30,195 nucleotides of DNA from a virus, in the IMG/VR virus record IMGVR_UViG_3300046714_000721, positions 1-30,195 of that record, one strand, 5' to 3'. Under the pieces are notes generated by a model. The model was not told the DNA's origin. It did no database searches and saw only the letters and a program-made list of their open reading frames with translations. The number at the start of each line of letters is the position of its first letter. Position 1 is the first letter of the stretch. Positions 1-12,074 of this stretch are shown here, in pieces. The translations under genes were made by a program, and so were the position numbers.

Positions 1-273
1 ATGAGTTTGGCTGTCGCGCCCTCGGTCATGACGTCCGGCCCGTTCGGGAGGTGCCACGTGGCTAGCATCTACCTCCCCGCGCCGGGCACGAAATACGGCC
101 CATGCCCGGAGCCATGCCAGCACCGCGATTGCGCGCGCACGAGAGCGGACGCGGCCATCGAGTGCCCCTACTGCCACAAGGCGATCGGATACGAACGGGC
201 CGCCACCGACGCCGGAGACGGCCTCGCCCACGAGACTTGCGCCTACCTACACTTCAGAGGAGCCGGAGCGTGA
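1..273 (+). CDS. small Cys-rich, probably zinc-binding protein
   Basis: This is a 90-residue protein of unknown function. It has CPEPC and then CPYC with a later HETC, spaced like a small zinc finger or treble clef (an inference). The ATG at position 1 is followed by A, giving ATGA, which fits a 4-base overlap with a gene lying outside the window. A GTG at 58 preceded by GGGAGG (46-51) is an alternative start. It would give a 71-residue protein that keeps all the CPxxC-type motifs, and the first 19 residues look less protein-like than the rest. The 3' end overlaps the next gene by GTGA. Confidence 0.6.
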   Translation: MSLAVAPSVMTSGPFGRCHVASIYLPAPGTKYGPCPEPCQHRDCARTRADAAIECPYCHKAIGYERAATDAGDGLAHETCAYLHFRGAGA

Positions 274-515
274 CCACGAAGAAAATGCCGACCATGGGGC
301 CCTGCTCCTGTAAGCCCGGAGAGCAGCGCGACAACTGCCCGAACTGCGAAGGCTCGGGCAGGGCGATTGACTGGCGGCGCTACCACTCCGAGCGGAAGCA
401 TGAGCCCACCCTCGCCGACCTGAGAGCCGCCGCGGTCGCCGAGTACGAGGAGGCGCTGGCGGCCGGGTACAAGGAAGATCTGCGGCCTGAGTTCCGGCCG
501 AAGGGGAGCCGATGA
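270..515 (+). CDS. small Cys-rich protein
   Basis: This 81-residue protein has no recognised function. Its N-terminal third carries CSC and CPNC spaced by about ten residues and followed by GSGR, a DnaJ-type or zinc-ribbon-like knuckle. The rest is charged and helical, with an Ala/Glu stretch. The start is the GTG at 270, inside the overlap with the upstream stop, with AGAGGAG at 256-262 as ribosome-binding site. It ends in an ATGA overlap with a still smaller Cys-rich gene. Metal binding is inferred from the cysteines only. Confidence 0.6.
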   Translation: MTTKKMPTMGPCSCKPGEQRDNCPNCEGSGRAIDWRRYHSERKHEPTLADLRAAAVAEYEEALAAGYKEDLRPEFRPKGSR

Positions 516-628
516 ACGCCACCGAGACCTACGGATTCTGCGAGGCTGGCCGATGCCCGAACCCTGGGCTCTGCCAGAGATGCCACCGCTGCGACCGCTG
601 CTGCCGCTGCTTCGAGCCGCGCACATGA
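512..628 (+). CDS. 38-residue Cys-rich microprotein
   Basis: This very short frame sits between two genes with ATGA overlaps at both ends (512-515 and 625-628), and AGGGGAG lies 7-10 bases upstream of its ATG. The protein has eight cysteines in 38 residues, at regular CxxC spacings (CQRC, CDRC, then CRC). Such density suggests metal binding, perhaps as a single zinc knuckle. The exact overlap signals on both sides are the main argument that it is translated. The function is unknown. Confidence 0.55.
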   Translation: MNATETYGFCEAGRCPNPGLCQRCHRCDRCCRCFEPRT

Positions 629-1071
629 GCGGCGCCGGGACCTGCCCGAAGGGCCACGCCCTCCACTGGTCGAGCGGCGGGCGCCGCTGGTGCCAGCCCT
701 GCGCCACCTACATCGACGGCCCGCGGGGCGCCATCCGCTCGCCGAAGGACGTCGCCAACCTGCTGATCGCCTCGCTCACCACGGAGGCCTTCGAGCTGGG
801 CCACGGCCTGATCCCGAAGTCGTACCCCTACGTCGCGCTCATGACCGAGGGGATCAGCGTCGAGACCTACGATGCGGCCCTCAACCTGCTCGAGGGCCTC
901 GGATTCATCCTGCACAACCACGACGAGATCCGGCCTGGGCCGCGCTTCGCCGAGCTGGCCGCGATGGCCGCTCGGCTCTTGAAGCAGGAGGCCGAGCGCC
1001 GGGCCGCCGAGCGCCATGTTCCACGTGGAACGTTTTGGGCCGGACGGCGCCAGGGGCCCGCGCGTGGGTAG
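625..1071 (+). CDS. zinc-ribbon / winged-helix-like protein
   Basis: This 148-residue protein starts at an ATGA overlap. Residues 7-26 contain CPKGH and CQPC, a likely zinc ribbon. The middle (about 35-110) is a mixed alpha/beta segment whose YDAALNLLEGLGFI helix and following strand resemble a winged-helix recognition region. The C-terminus is an Ala/Arg/Glu helix followed by a Gly/Arg tail. DNA binding is an inference, and I do not recognise the family. Its last codons overlap the parS-like palindrome at 1017-1032, encoding HVPRGTF there. Confidence 0.6.
   Translation: MSGAGTCPKGHALHWSSGGRRWCQPCATYIDGPRGAIRSPKDVANLLIASLTTEAFELGHGLIPKSYPYVALMTEGISVETYDAALNLLEGLGFILHNHDEIRPGPRFAELAAMAARLLKQEAERRAAERHVPRGTFWAGRRQGPARG
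1017..1032. promoter_or_regulatory. parS-like palindrome (candidate ParB binding site)
   Basis: The 16 bases TGTTCCACGTGGAACG contain a perfect 14-base palindrome (1018-1031). Chromosomal parS sites bound by ParB have the form TGTTtCACGTGaAACA, and the C/G variant TGTTCCACGTGGAAC is known from Pseudomonas. Only the last base differs from the 16-base palindrome. The site lies in the 3' end of the preceding gene, just before the likely start of the next. I found no second full copy in the window. Binding by host ParB, or by any phage protein, is inferred from sequence alone. Confidence 0.5.
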
Positions 1072-1369
1072 GGATCTCGGGAGATACCGGCGGCGCTATG
1101 AAGGCACCCAGCGAGGGCTCGAGGTGCGCGCCGAGTGGAAGGACAAGAACAAGCGGAGGCTCTACGGCTACGTCGTGGAGCATCGGCGAAAGATGCGGCT
1201 GCTCGAGGAGGCCGGGACCGCTCTCCGCCTCCGCTGGCCGCTATACACCGGGCAGGGGGAGCCCGGGACCGGGCCGGCTGGCCCATCCTCTGCGGCGGCG
1301 GGCGCATTGCACCGATCGGCTCAGCCCGCCGCCGCGCTTTCGGCCGTCAAGAAAAGGGGGAGGCGATGA
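1064..1369 (+). CDS. small basic hypothetical protein
   Basis: With the GTG at 1064 (AGGGG at 1052-1056 as ribosome-binding site, 8-base overlap with the upstream gene) this is a 101-residue protein. An ATG at 1016 in the same frame would add 16 residues beginning MFHVER, but it has no good ribosome-binding site and its bases are those of the parS-like palindrome. The N-terminal 65 residues are Arg-rich and plausibly helical. From about residue 70 the protein turns into low-complexity Gly/Pro/Ala over DNA that forms strong hairpins. It ends in an ATGA overlap with the next gene. The function is unknown. Confidence 0.5.
   Translation: MGRDLGRYRRRYEGTQRGLEVRAEWKDKNKRRLYGYVVEHRRKMRLLEEAGTALRLRWPLYTGQGEPGTGPAGPSSAAAGALHRSAQPAAALSAVKKRGRR
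1292..1335. repeat. 12-bp perfect inverted repeat (strong hairpin)
   Basis: GCGGCGGCGGGC (1292-1303) and its exact complement GCCCGCCGCCGC (1324-1335) can form an all-GC 12-bp stem with a 20-base loop. The loop itself contains the palindrome CCGATCGG (1312-1319). Only a short T-run (GCTTT) follows, so a classical rho-independent terminator is uncertain. It lies inside the low-complexity end of a small gene and upstream of the recombination operon, where an attenuator or a pause/processing site would make sense. Confidence 0.55.
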
Positions 1370-1581
1370 TCTGGAACGGAGACGCCCTGCCGCCTGGCCG
1401 CGCCAAGTTCGGCCCGAGCGGATTCCACAACCTATGCCGGGCCGCTCGCAAGCCGTACTCCTGGCTCCCGGCCCTTCTCCTCGTCGCCTACGCGGCCGTC
1501 TTCTGTGCCGCCGTCTGGACCTTTCTCCGGGCCTTCGACAAGGCCCTTTTCATCCACGATCAGCTCCTTCGCGGGCGCTGA
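1366..1581 (+). CDS. small single-pass membrane protein
   Basis: This is a 71-residue protein with one clear hydrophobic helix (about residues 33-55, from WLPALLLV to AAVWTFL), flanked by basic residues. The start is the ATG at 1366 in an ATGA overlap, with a strong AGGGGGAGG just upstream (about 1355-1363). The Arg/Lys-rich N-terminal flank suggests an N-in orientation. It sits directly before the recombination genes. Roles such as superinfection exclusion, or holin-like membrane activity, cannot be told from sequence. No lysis gene is adjacent, which argues weakly against a holin. Confidence 0.6.
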   Translation: MIWNGDALPPGRAKFGPSGFHNLCRAARKPYSWLPALLLVAYAAVFCAAVWTFLRAFDKALFIHDQLLRGR

Positions 1582-1602
1582 TCCAATCTCAAGGGGGAAC
1601 CG

Positions 1603-2502
1603 ATGGAACCGAAGACCGAAGAACAACCCGCCCCGCAGAGCACCGCCCTGGCGCGTCTCGACGCTCAAGAGCTCATCAAGATCGCCCTCGAGCAGAATGC
1701 CGACATCGACAAGCTCGAGCGACTGTTCGGGCTGGCGAAGGAGATCCGCGCCGAGCAGGCCCGCTCGGCATGGTACGCGGCGATGGCCGAATTCCAAGCG
1801 CGATGCCCGGCCCCGAAGAAGGACCGGACGGCCAGCATGGGGACCTTCACCTTCAAGTACGCCACCCTCCAAGAATGGATGCGGGCGATCCTCCCGACGA
1901 TGGGCGATTGCGGCCTGGCCGTCTCCTTCGAGACGAGTCAGGGCCCGGCCAGCGTCTCGGCCCGCTGCGTCATCTCCCACGCCCTGGGCCACGCGGAGCG
2001 GAGCGGCACGATCGAGATGCCGATCCCGAAGCCGCTGCCGGACGGCAAGGGAGCGAACGAGATGCAGCGGGTTGGGATCTCGCTCACCTACGCGATGCGG
2101 AACGCGCTGCGTTCGGTGATCGGGCTGGCGCCCGAGGACGGGGAGGACGAGGTCGCCGGGACTGGCTCGACGGTGCGCCAGCCGGCCCGCTCGGCTCCGC
2201 CCGCCCAGCCGGCGGCGCGCTCCGAGGCTCCCGCCCAGGCCGAGGGCGAGGTCCGCAGCTGGACCGGCCGGATCAAATCGGTGACCACGAGGAGCGGGGT
2301 CAAGAAGGCGACCGAGGAGGGCAAGAAGGACACGCCCTGGACGATCTACAACCTCGTCGCCGATCTCGGGCTCGAGTTCGGGACCTTCTCGGAGAGCCAC
2401 GCCAAGTTCGCGAAGGAGGCCGGCACCTCGAGGGTCAAGATCGAGTACCGGGTCAACGGCTCCCGCCTCTCCGTGGTCAGCATCGACGCGGCGCATGAGT
2501 AA
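1603..2502 (+). CDS. erf: Erf-family single-strand DNA annealing protein
   Basis: This 299-residue protein matches the ERF family of phage recombinases, which anneal complementary single strands during recombination-dependent replication or genome circularisation. Family hallmarks are visible: a helical N-terminus, FKYATLQEWMRAILPTM near residue 85, GLAVSFET, and the signature MQRVGISLTYAMRNALRSVI at about 153-172, followed by an acidic EDGEDE. A Pro/Ala linker (about 185-220) leads to a second domain of about 80 residues, rich in beta strands and OB-fold-like by inference. GGGGGAA precedes the ATG. The neighbouring nuclease and coiled-coil genes form the usual recombination operon. Confidence 0.88.
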   Translation: MEPKTEEQPAPQSTALARLDAQELIKIALEQNADIDKLERLFGLAKEIRAEQARSAWYAAMAEFQARCPAPKKDRTASMGTFTFKYATLQEWMRAILPTMGDCGLAVSFETSQGPASVSARCVISHALGHAERSGTIEMPIPKPLPDGKGANEMQRVGISLTYAMRNALRSVIGLAPEDGEDEVAGTGSTVRQPARSAPPAQPAARSEAPAQAEGEVRSWTGRIKSVTTRSGVKKATEEGKKDTPWTIYNLVADLGLEFGTFSESHAKFAKEAGTSRVKIEYRVNGSRLSVVSIDAAHE

Positions 2503-3004
2503 TCCCAGGGTCACGGATATTCTGCGGGAGGCCGGGCTCATCGACGCCACTTGGTACACGACCCAGGGGCGGGATCTCGGCACCGCAGTGCACGCGGCCT
2601 CGGCCTATCTCGACGAGGGGCGGCTCGACTGGTCGACGGTCGACCCGCTTGTCGCCCCTCGGCTCCGCTCCTACCAGAAGTTCCTCGAGGAGATGCGCCC
2701 GGCCATCGTCAGCATCGAGGAGACGGTCGCCAACCCGACGCTGGGCTACATCGGGCACGTGGACCGCACCCTTGAGATCAACGGGCGCTTCGGCGTGCTC
2801 GATCTCAAGTCTCCGGCCCGCGCCCCCTGGCATCCGATCCAGCTCGCGCTCTACGCCGGCTGCTACCGGGGCCCGGTCGCGCGATGGAACCTCTACCTCT
2901 CCGACACGAATTACCAACTCGTCGAGCACCGCGGCCGGCGTGATTGGGAGGTTGCGAAGGCCGCGATCACCCTTGCATCATGGAGGAGGAACTGTGCAGC
3001 CTGA
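2495..3004 (+). CDS. PD-(D/E)XK exonuclease (RecB/Cas4-like)
   Basis: This 169-residue protein overlaps the Erf gene by 8 bases. It shows the core of the PD-(D/E)XK nuclease superfamily: GHVDR at about 87-91, VLDLKS at about 101-106 (the D-x-K pair), and the downstream QLALYA helix typical of RecB/Cas4-type phage exonucleases. An early GTAVHAA supplies the usual His-containing helix. It probably resects duplex ends to make the single strands that Erf anneals. The length is at the short end for the family, but all core elements are present. Confidence 0.78.
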   Translation: MSNPRVTDILREAGLIDATWYTTQGRDLGTAVHAASAYLDEGRLDWSTVDPLVAPRLRSYQKFLEEMRPAIVSIEETVANPTLGYIGHVDRTLEINGRFGVLDLKSPARAPWHPIQLALYAGCYRGPVARWNLYLSDTNYQLVEHRGRRDWEVAKAAITLASWRRNCAA

Positions 3005-3707
3005 AACCGGAATGATCCAGATCGAGAGGCCCGGCCCGCCGGCCATCGTCGCCGAGTTGGCACCACTGGTGGCTCTGGCGCGGTCGTTCAAGGTCAACGA
3101 CAAGGACTCCCACGCCGAGGCGCTCGAGATATGCAAACGCTTCCGCCAGGGCGAGCGTGGCATCGAAGACCACTTCGCGCGCGCCAAGAAGGCGGCCAGC
3201 GACGCACACAAGGAGCTCGTGCGATCCATCGCCGGACTGGTGGGCCCTATCGCCGAGGCCCGCGGCATCATCGAAGGAACGAGCCGGGCCTTCGAGAAGC
3301 AGGAGGAGCAGAAGGCGGCGGCCCTGCAGCGCGAGTTGCAGGAGCGGGCCAGGAAGGAGGAGGAGGAGCGGCAGCTCATGGACGCGATCGAGGCCGAGCA
3401 GGCCGGCGACTCCGGGGCGGCGGAGGCGATCCTACAGGAGCAGGCGGCGGCGCCACAGACCATCGTCGAGGCCCAGGTCGCCAAGGTGGCCGGCGCCTCG
3501 AGCTCGAAGCGGTACGCGGCGGAGATCTTCGACCCGCTGGCCCTCGTCCGATTCGTCGCTGCGAACCCTCAATGGCTCTCCCTGCTCGAGGTCGACCGGC
3601 TGGCTGAGGAGCACCCGAACCTCAACCGGCTGGCGACCGCCCAGCGCGACGGGCTCAATTTCCCGGGGGTGCGCCCGATCGAGAAGACCGTCAGGCTCTA
3701 CCGGTAG
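2994..3707 (+). CDS. coiled-coil protein of the recombination module
   Basis: The start is the GTG at 2994, with a very strong GGAGGAGG at 2982-2989, giving 237 residues. An ATG at 3012 is the alternative. The N-terminal half is helical. Residues about 95-150 are a Glu/Lys/Arg/Gln coiled coil. The C-terminal 80 residues (KRYAAEIFDPLALV through LNFPGVRPIE) resemble a domain I recall as common in phage proteins encoded beside annealing proteins and nucleases, ending in an N-x-PGV-type motif. No catalytic function is evident. A structural or accessory role in recombination is inferred from its position. Confidence 0.65.
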   Translation: MQPETGMIQIERPGPPAIVAELAPLVALARSFKVNDKDSHAEALEICKRFRQGERGIEDHFARAKKAASDAHKELVRSIAGLVGPIAEARGIIEGTSRAFEKQEEQKAAALQRELQERARKEEEERQLMDAIEAEQAGDSGAAEAILQEQAAAPQTIVEAQVAKVAGASSSKRYAAEIFDPLALVRFVAANPQWLSLLEVDRLAEEHPNLNRLATAQRDGLNFPGVRPIEKTVRLYR

Positions 3708-8835: not shown

Positions 8836-10323
8836 GTGAGACAGCCCCGGGAAATTTCAAATCAGGCTCCGGCACTCGGCGCCTTCGAAGTGGAGACCCT
8901 CCCGCTCGAGTCCCTGCAGCCGGCGGCCTACAACCCGCGGAAGATCCGCAAGCGGAACCTCGAGGCCCTGGCGCGCGAGCTGTGCGAGTTCGGGCTGGTG
9001 GAGCCGATCGTTGCGAACCGGCGCCCGAGCGGAGAGCTGGTGATCGTCGGCGGACACCAGCGGCTCGAGGCGGCGCGCGCCATCGGCTGGCCGGCCGTGC
9101 CGGTACACGTGATCGGCGTGAGCCTCGAGCGCGAGAAGGCGCTCAACCTGGCGCTCAACAACCCGGCGCTGCAGGGCGAGTGGGACGAGGACAAGCTGCG
9201 GTCCCTGCTCTCGGAGCTGCCGCAGCTCGAGGCGGGCCTGGCCGGGTTCGAGGCCGGGCTCCTGGCCGAGCCGCAGATCCCGGGCCCGACCCTGGCGGAT
9301 CGCTTCGGCGTGCCGCCCTTCTCGGTCCTCGACGCCCGTCAAGGCTATTGGCAGGAGCGGAAGCGCGCCTGGCTCTCCCTGGGGATCAAGAGCGAGCTGG
9401 GGCGCGGGGAGAACCTGCTCAACTTCTCCGATGCCGCCCGCGGCAAGGTCAAGTACGAAAAGAGCGGCGGCGCCCTGGCGGCCTACTCCGATGGAAGCGG
9501 GCCCGTGAAATACGCGCGCGAGCAGACCGCCAGCCTCAAGGGCGGCAAGACCTTCGGCCTCACCATGCACCCCTACGACGGAACCGACCCAGGGACCACG
9601 GCAAGCTACACCGGCACCTCGATCTTCGACCCCGTCCTCTGCGAGCTCGCCTACCGGTGGTTCTGCCCTCCCGGCGGACAGGTCCTCGACCCGTTCGCCG
9701 GCGGGAGCGTGCGCGGCATCGTGGCCGCCCGCCTCGGCCGCGCCTACGTCGGGATCGACCTCTCGGCGGCCCAGGTCCAAGCTAACCGCGATCAGCTCGG
9801 CGCCGCCCTGGACCCGGCTCCGCGCTGGGTGGTGGGCGACTCGCGCGACGCCGGCGAGCTGGCGCCGGGCGCCTATGATCTGATCTTCTCCTCCCCTCCC
9901 TACGGAGACCTTGAGGTCTACTCGACGCACCCCAAGGACCTGTCGGCTATGAAGGCGCCGGAGTTCCGCAGCGCCTACCGCGAGTGCGTGGCGGCGGCCT
10001 GCGCGCTGCTCAAGCCGGACCGCTTCGCCTGCTTCGTCGTGGGCGACTACCGCGAGAAGGGCGCGCGCGGCATCTATCGCAACTTCGTGAGCGAGACGAT
10101 CTCCGCCTTCCAAGCCGCGGGCCTCGAACTCTACAACGAGGCGATTCTCGTGACCGCCGTGGGGTCGCTGCCGATCCGGACCGCCCGCAATTTCGAGAGC
10201 GCCCGCAAGCTGGGGAAGACGCACCAGAACGTGCTCGTCTTCGTCAAGGGCGATCCGAAGAAGGCGACCCACGCGATCGGGCCAGTCGACTTCGCGCGCG
10301 CGCTGTCAGGGGAGACCGCCTGA
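8836..10323 (+). CDS. ParB-like domain fused to DNA methyltransferase
   Basis: This is a 495-residue two-part protein. Residues about 15-110 are a ParB/Srx-like N-terminal domain with LQPAAYNPRKI and GGHQRLEAARAIGW (about 72-85), the family's nucleotide-binding box. A linker region with FSVLDARQGYWQERKRAWLSLG follows, typical of phage modification methylases. The C-terminal half is a class I DNA methyltransferase: VLDPFAGGSVRGI (about 283-295) binds AdoMet, and FSSPPYGD (about 350-357) is the catalytic motif IV of N4-cytosine/N6-adenine enzymes. Such fusions are usually encoded beside terminase genes, as here. It probably modifies phage DNA. Target specificity cannot be read. Confidence 0.82.
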   Translation: MRQPREISNQAPALGAFEVETLPLESLQPAAYNPRKIRKRNLEALARELCEFGLVEPIVANRRPSGELVIVGGHQRLEAARAIGWPAVPVHVIGVSLEREKALNLALNNPALQGEWDEDKLRSLLSELPQLEAGLAGFEAGLLAEPQIPGPTLADRFGVPPFSVLDARQGYWQERKRAWLSLGIKSELGRGENLLNFSDAARGKVKYEKSGGALAAYSDGSGPVKYAREQTASLKGGKTFGLTMHPYDGTDPGTTASYTGTSIFDPVLCELAYRWFCPPGGQVLDPFAGGSVRGIVAARLGRAYVGIDLSAAQVQANRDQLGAALDPAPRWVVGDSRDAGELAPGAYDLIFSSPPYGDLEVYSTHPKDLSAMKAPEFRSAYRECVAAACALLKPDRFACFVVGDYREKGARGIYRNFVSETISAFQAAGLELYNEAILVTAVGSLPIRTARNFESARKLGKTHQNVLVFVKGDPKKATHAIGPVDFARALSGETA

Positions 10324-10727: not shown

Positions 10728-12074
10728 ATGGGCGCGGCGGCCGGCCGCCAGGCGATCCTCGAGCTGCCCCCCCTCTACCAGTACCAGCACGACCTCGTGC
10801 ACTCGCCCAGCAAGCGGGGAGTCGTCGTCTCGGCGCCGCAGATCGGCAAGACCTTTTCCGTCGCGGCATGGCAGGTCCGCCACGCATGGGCGCTCCCTGG
10901 GCGGCTCTCGTGGTGGGCGGCGCCGACGCACGATCAGACCGAGTTCGGGTTCGACGCCCTCGTGCAGATCCTCGAGGCGGTCAGCGACTCGCAGGGGCGG
11001 AACGCGATCGCCAGCAAGGGCCGCTCCGCGCCGCGGCGCCTCGTACTGCGGAACGGTCACCGGATCGACTTCCGGTCCTGGGAGCGCGAGGACAACCTCG
11101 GCGGCGCGCCGGTCTGGACCTTGGTCGTCGACGAGGCCCAGGAGCTCACGCGGCGCGCGCACTCGAACCTCGCGGCCCGCCAGGCGCACACCATGGGGCC
11201 CTCGCGCTACATCGGCAACGCCGACCACGTCGCCTCGGAGTGGTGGCGCATCTGCAAGGCCGCCGAGGAGAGCGGAAGCTATTTTCAGCGGTGGACGTGG
11301 AAGGACCGGATCGCATACCTCGCCGGCGCCGAGCGCCAGGCCTACTCGGAGTTCCTCGACGGCGAGCGCGAGAAGGGCATGGAGGACTTCGAACGGCTCT
11401 ACGAGGCGAAGTTCCTCACCCTCGGCACCGGCGTGCTCAATCTCCGGCCCGCCTGCACGCTCGGCGGCTCGGCGATGGAGCCGGTCGAGCTGCCCTACTT
11501 CGCCGCCTGGGATGGAAAGAGCGAATGCATCGCGGGGCTCGACCTCGGCGAGCACGTCGACTACACCGTGCTCTCGGTCGTCGAGCTCGAGACGGGGCGG
11601 CTCCTGGCGATGGACCGCTTCCGGCGCGTCGGCGGCTGGGCCGTGCAGGTGGCGCGCGCGATGGCATCATGCCGGCGCTACTGTCGCACGAAGAAGTCGG
11701 CGCTCGAGACCGGCGGCGGCAGGATTGACAGCCGAACTCTATCGGTGTACGTTGACGCGACGATGCTGGGCGGGCCCGTCGCCGAGATGCTCGAGGCCGC
11801 AGCCGAGAATGACCCGATCGATTTCGTCCCGGTGGTCTTCGACCAGGGGAAAAAAGCCGCGATGATCCGATACCTCCAGGCCGCGAGCGTCGAGGGCGGG
11901 CTCTTAAAGATGCCCTACATCGCCGAGGCGGTCGACGAGGCCGATATGCTCGAGCGCGTGCCGCTGGCGCGCGGCGTCTCCTACCGCGGCACGCAGGGAT
12001 CCCACGACGACGTGATCTGGTCCCTGGGCCTGGCCCTCTACGGCGTCAATCACACCGTGGGGGCGATCCTGTGA
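10728..12074 (+). CDS. terL: terminase large subunit (packaging ATPase/nuclease)
   Basis: This 448-residue packaging motor pumps DNA into the prohead and cuts concatemers. The ATPase half has a Walker A variant SAPQIGKT (about 35-42), adenine/coupling segments, and Walker B WTLVVDEAQE (about 130-139) with the catalytic Glu. The nuclease half has an RNase H-like fold signature: GLDLGEHVDYTVLSVVE (about 271-287), YVDATMLGG (about 340) and GSHDDVIWSLGLALYG (about 423-438), which supply acidic metal ligands. The length is normal. The start ATG at 10728 lies 3 bases after the small-subunit stop. A TTGACA/TACGTT pair inside the gene is probably chance. Confidence 0.9.
   Translation: MGAAAGRQAILELPPLYQYQHDLVHSPSKRGVVVSAPQIGKTFSVAAWQVRHAWALPGRLSWWAAPTHDQTEFGFDALVQILEAVSDSQGRNAIASKGRSAPRRLVLRNGHRIDFRSWEREDNLGGAPVWTLVVDEAQELTRRAHSNLAARQAHTMGPSRYIGNADHVASEWWRICKAAEESGSYFQRWTWKDRIAYLAGAERQAYSEFLDGEREKGMEDFERLYEAKFLTLGTGVLNLRPACTLGGSAMEPVELPYFAAWDGKSECIAGLDLGEHVDYTVLSVVELETGRLLAMDRFRRVGGWAVQVARAMASCRRYCRTKKSALETGGGRIDSRTLSVYVDATMLGGPVAEMLEAAAENDPIDFVPVVFDQGKKAAMIRYLQAASVEGGLLKMPYIAEAVDEADMLERVPLARGVSYRGTQGSHDDVIWSLGLALYGVNHTVGAIL

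Follow-up and report, generated by a model that had tools for sequence, protein, structure and literature searches.

Near the start of a phage genome, at the boundary between two early genes, lies a short inverted repeat that raises the question of whether the phage carries a bacterial centromere site, parS, and with it a means of engaging the ParB protein of its host, or whether the repeat serves another purpose or none. The stretch of DNA analysed here, referred to as the window, is an entire virus record, linear and 30,195 bases long, that may be a fragment; its GC content is 67.6%. Its early region encodes an ERF annealing protein, an exonuclease, RusA, a C5 methylase and a ParB_N-methyltransferase. 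Genes for terminase, portal, capsid and tail come after it; no tRNA genes were found in the window. The features that bear on the question are these:

625..1071, + strand: upstream early gene, function not assigned; strongly coding frame over 625-1015
1016..1369, + strand: downstream small basic ORF; ATG at 1016 is the first possible start and GTG at 1064 an alternative start
1017..1032, no strand assigned: parS-type site TGTTCCACGTGGAACG; perfect palindrome over 1018-1031
1603..2502, + strand: ERF-family single-strand annealing protein (PF04404, phrog_155), which marks the early recombination region
2495..3004, + strand: recombination exonuclease (phrog_466, phrog_298)
8836-10323: ParB_N domain (PF02195) fused to an N6/N4 DNA methyltransferase; no detectable ParB HTH domain (Pfam)

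The sequence-only reading from which this analysis started had described a nearly symmetrical parS-like site overlapping a gene boundary, and each part of that description held when examined. The 16-mer lies exactly at 1017-1032 and matches the chromosomal-type 16-bp inverted repeat tGTTNCACGTGNAACa; its inner GTTCCACGTGGAAC (1018-1031) is perfectly palindromic, and at the full 16 bp the symmetry fails at the outer pair, T..G. It is the sole copy in the window, with no second site at three or fewer mismatches to the 16-mer. The upstream ORF (625-1071) reads ...ERHVPRGTF... across the site, and the downstream ORF (1016-1369) opens with ATG-TTC-CAC-GTG-GAA-CGT, or MFHVER. Over 625-1015 the upstream frame scores +76 bits with a GC3 of 0.97, and over 1016-1071 it falls to -22 bits with a GC3 of 0.61, so that the codon signature of the genome is gone from the site onward; the downstream frame is the coding-like one from 1072 (+10.7 bits over 1072-1200), its signal fading beyond. 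Because the coding signal passes from one frame (to 1015) to the other (from 1072), the site is placed at the seam of the two genes. Its AT-rich wobble bases are atypical of the upstream gene, which means that coding usage of the upstream frame offers no explanation for the site. The upstream gene has no Pfam or PHROG match (PHROG scan of 646-1068), and no homologues of the downstream ORF were found in Pfam, PHROG or the viral contigs. Farther along, within a small ORF at 1366-1581, there is a terminator-like hairpin, GGGCCTTCGACAAGGCCC followed by TTTT (1529-1546).

The closest counterparts of the site are found in bacterial chromosomes. The parS consensus of Myxococcus xanthus is TGTTCCACGTGGAACG (PMC3899335; repeated in the review PMC7022226), identical to the window site at all 16 of 16 bases, and gel shifts with one such site showed binding by M. 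xanthus ParB in vitro (PMC3899335). In Pseudomonas aeruginosa, ParB uses TGTTCCACGTGGAACM in vivo (PMC5098823), from which the window site differs by one terminal base, and one mismatched pair reduces affinity only slightly (PMC4368675). The parS probe used for Bdellovibrio bacteriovorus is GGATGTTCCACGTGGAACATCC (PMC10547168). The chromosomal parS of Pseudomonas, Xanthomonas and Bdellovibrio represent the C form and are grouped with that of M. xanthus as the closest known systems. The arrangement differs, however, since the chromosomes carry a cluster of sites near oriC beside parAB, whereas the window has a single site in a phage with no detected ParA or partition-type ParB. The single site and the one imperfect outer pair both count against reading it as parS.

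A palindrome at the head of a gene might instead be an operator, bound by a regulator of the downstream early gene that either the phage encodes or the host supplies, and the likeness to parS would then be incidental. The site does overlie a possible start of that gene, and operators are typically palindromes of such size, but only one copy is present, no repressor was identified among the ORFs scanned, and no sigma-70-type promoter was found in positions 1-3000, which is a weak test in GC-rich DNA. Taken with the agreement at 16/16 bases with a sequence that ParB is known to bind (PMC3899335), these observations make the operator reading quite improbable. An element acting in the RNA, whether as a hairpin that covers the start codon or as a terminator (a stem followed by GTTTT), was rejected: RNA of 1010-1045 forms a hairpin of -11.2 kcal/mol, yet this fold is no better than those of shuffled sequences (z, -0.87). 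The site is also absent from the terminator-like sites found, and an RNA element, very improbable on these grounds, would leave the match to parS unexplained.

The weight given to that match depends on how readily it could arise by chance, which was estimated with Markov models of order 0-3 and, for palindrome counts, by comparison with simulations. The specific 14-mer is expected at 0.5-1.4e-4 copies per window and the specific 16-mer at 3-9e-6, while perfect palindromes with a length of 14 bp or above number four in the window vs 5.2 in simulations. The original argument that a perfect 14-mer is unlikely by chance thus stands for this particular 14-mer (~1e-4 expected) and fails for 14-bp palindromes in general; as these are ordinary in the window, palindromy as such says little. 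The effective rarity is also less than the ~1e-4 figure suggests, since other famous motifs could equally have been recognised.

Relatives of the phage contribute little to the question. Five relatives of the ERF gene were found in viral contigs, at 38-51% identity, one of which (L208) is partly syntenic with the window and has the ERF gene, exonuclease, next gene and terminase in the same order. The site is absent from all five, L208 included, and they decide nothing about the site because they are too diverged and a common host is not certain. Searches of viral contigs by terminase, by a 117-aa ORF and by the upstream gene found no relatives, the nearest terminases being ~25% identical to that of the window, and an ERF profile search of bacterial genomes gave no match. 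The 16-mer is rare in Gemmatimonadota (2/61 genomes).

The palindrome could, then, be an accident of overlapping coding sequences that no protein uses. Such an origin would agree with the commonness of 14-bp palindromes in the window, the absence of the site from the five ERF relatives, its single copy and imperfect outer pair, and the weaker enrichment of such sites in GC-rich contigs among the matches listed. Against it stand the low expectation for the specific 14-mer, the AT-rich wobble bases (GC3 of 0.61 vs 0.97 upstream) and an enrichment of parS across phages, described below, and we consider a chance origin unlikely, though far from negligible.

The phage itself seems a poor source of a protein that would bind the site as parS. 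The sequence-only reading had seen no parA or partition-type parB nearby and had recognised a ParB-like domain only in a methyltransferase fusion, and the scan of ORFs agreed on both counts: it contains no ParA or HTH-bearing ParB, and its sole ParB_N domain is that of 8836-10323. A self-contained phage ParABS, with parA and parB next to parS, is absent from the ORFs scanned in this record, which may be a fragment; within the same bounds, what is found is a parS mimic without a ParA or ParB of its own, as in the mobile element SGI1. The suggestion that the N-domain of the methyltransferase might bind the site fared less well. The presence of ParB_N speaks for it and the lack of a ParB HTH domain against it, and no parS at one or fewer mismatches occurs in 82 loci totalling 1.06 Mb (80 ParB-methyltransferase relatives and two ERF relatives), so that this domain is not a likely binder. 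Phages moreover commonly have ParB_N fused to a methyltransferase, and for some ParB-fold fusions the nucleotide bound is an NTP other than CTP (PMC12704722). Since parS does not recur with the relatives of the fusion, the site as a target of the phage's own ParB-domain methyltransferase was rejected and is scarcely credible.

Wider searches indicated that sites of this kind are not peculiar to the window. In viral contigs (IMG/VR), which may include host DNA, the flanks of 14-mer sites were tallied among the matches listed; the search itself set no requirement on a T..A flank. The next pair outward was nevertheless T..A in 60 of 121 listed sites, vs 7.7 expected, and the class without a T/A flank, duplicates removed, bounds random matches at ~26% of those listed. 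The T..G-type flank seen in the window occurs at 21 listed sites, ~17 above background. Extra parS copies within the same loci numbered 18 among the matches listed vs 0 for ten control palindromes, and 34% of the listed sites were intergenic or at a gene edge vs 17% of random positions. GC-rich viral contigs have a smaller genuine-looking fraction of such 14-mers among the matches listed, and for a T..G site in a GC-rich contig the estimated probability of being genuine is 0.84 when all listed sites are used and ~0.58 from GC-rich contigs only, both values being rough and drawn from small classes. One viral contig (L277) has two exact TGTTCCACGTGGAACG copies 24 bp apart (11951-11990); ~350 bp from the first of them lies another parS core, the third in this contig. 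Plasmid searches, in which only matches of at least 17 bases pass the E-value limit, are not directly comparable with the phage searches.

Named phages were searched with 18-mers around parS in 50,697 INPHARED phage records, a redundant set. The C-form 18-mer ATGTTCCACGTGGAACAT matched 108 records and the T-form 18-mer ATGTTTCACGTGAAACAT matched 315, in each case from many unrelated phages, while two shuffled control palindromes of the same design matched 5 records and 63 records, the latter all from one Synechococcus phage species. Host-type parS is strongly over-represented across phage genomes. According to the organism lists, the C form is found in Pseudomonas, Stenotrophomonas and Bdellovibrio phages, and the T form in Listeria, Bacillus, Microbacterium, Arthrobacter and Gordonia phages. 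The form carried by a phage appears to follow that of its host, a pattern read off those lists without phylogenetic control and with exceptions in both. No survey of parS in phages was found in the open literature searched.

Several individual records illustrate the range of these occurrences. Listeria records OR846756, OR848404 and similar ones are short phage-labelled contigs with several parS that may be host chromosome near oriC, and such contigs may inflate the T-form count. The Pseudomonas (P. syringae) phage ventosus has three parS-type sites, at 3502, 5240 and 6012, a span of ~2.5 kb occupied by small genes. In Bacillus phage Goe1, of the phi29 type, the endolysin gene contains a perfect T-form parS with an extension to 18 bp (1501-1518). 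Perfect parS palindromes, sometimes several, also occur in Microviridae and related small ssDNA phages, with up to 12 strand hits, or about six sites, in the bajarodino viruses; ParB could act there only on the double-stranded replicative form.

Taken together, these comparisons favor the reading that the 16 bases are a genuine chromosomal-type parS that recruits host ParB, to which we assign a probability of 0.6. The site is identical to one by which some bacteria anchor their own chromosome and segregate it, so that the phage probably borrows the ParB of its host. Recruitment of host ParB, as originally suggested for this locus, is partly supported, by the 16/16 identity to a bound parS and by the apparently host-matched enrichment in phages. 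The methylase N-domain as binder did not survive, and positioning, shielding or competition are candidate results of the recruitment. Binding is the probable step, resting on sequence identity and phage-wide enrichment, and from it we infer the steps that might follow. The host would possess a ParB of matching specificity. Once loaded at the site, this ParB would form a CTP-dependent clamp, and by sliding into the early genes nearby it would mark the phage genome, on entry or during replication, as centromere DNA. That genome might then be positioned, condensed or segregated by host ParA, and possibly by SMC. The early genes beside the site may be dampened as a by-product, since a mild excess of ParB silences genes close to parS in P. 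aeruginosa (PMC7022226).

An element that carries the parS of another replicon is of a kind already known, and the window phage is probably a further case of it. SGI1 carries copies of the parS of IncC plasmids and is stabilized by the ParABS of the plasmid (PMC10954446); the window phage would likewise be a mobile element that uses the system of the replicon from which its site derives. In SGI1 the lender is an IncC plasmid and binding has been demonstrated, whereas the lender to the window phage would be the host chromosome, with binding predicted. The genomes of Bacillus phage phi29 and its relatives are reportedly handled by host Spo0J (ParB), as Meijer et al. are said to have described in 2005. 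There, too, a host chromosomal ParB would handle a phage genome, and the phi29-type Goe1 has its perfect T-form parS; the phage family, parS form and host are different, however, and spore entrapment may not apply to the window phage. The phage-plasmid P1 and the cluster A mycobacteriophages encode their own ParA and ParB and have private parS. The upkeep of phage DNA via a centromere is what the window phage would share with them, and they differ from it in their own ParABS, none having been detected in the window.

It is possible, though we would put it at somewhat less than even odds, that phages have repeatedly evolved a widespread strategy of carrying the parS of their host, in whichever allele the host ParB favors, and that the window phage is one example. 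Such a strategy, tentatively, would span tailed phages, some with several clustered sites, as well as the small ssDNA Microviridae, and its effect would be to draw in host ParB so that phage DNA is positioned, condensed or quieted. Deletions of parB are viable in Bacillus subtilis and Pseudomonas putida. The general and apparently host-matched enrichment of parS in phages is a more interesting lead than the single site in the window. If it reflects such a strategy, the chromosome segregation proteins of the host would be a common and mostly overlooked part of infection, and the parS allele that a phage carries could hint at the identity of its host.
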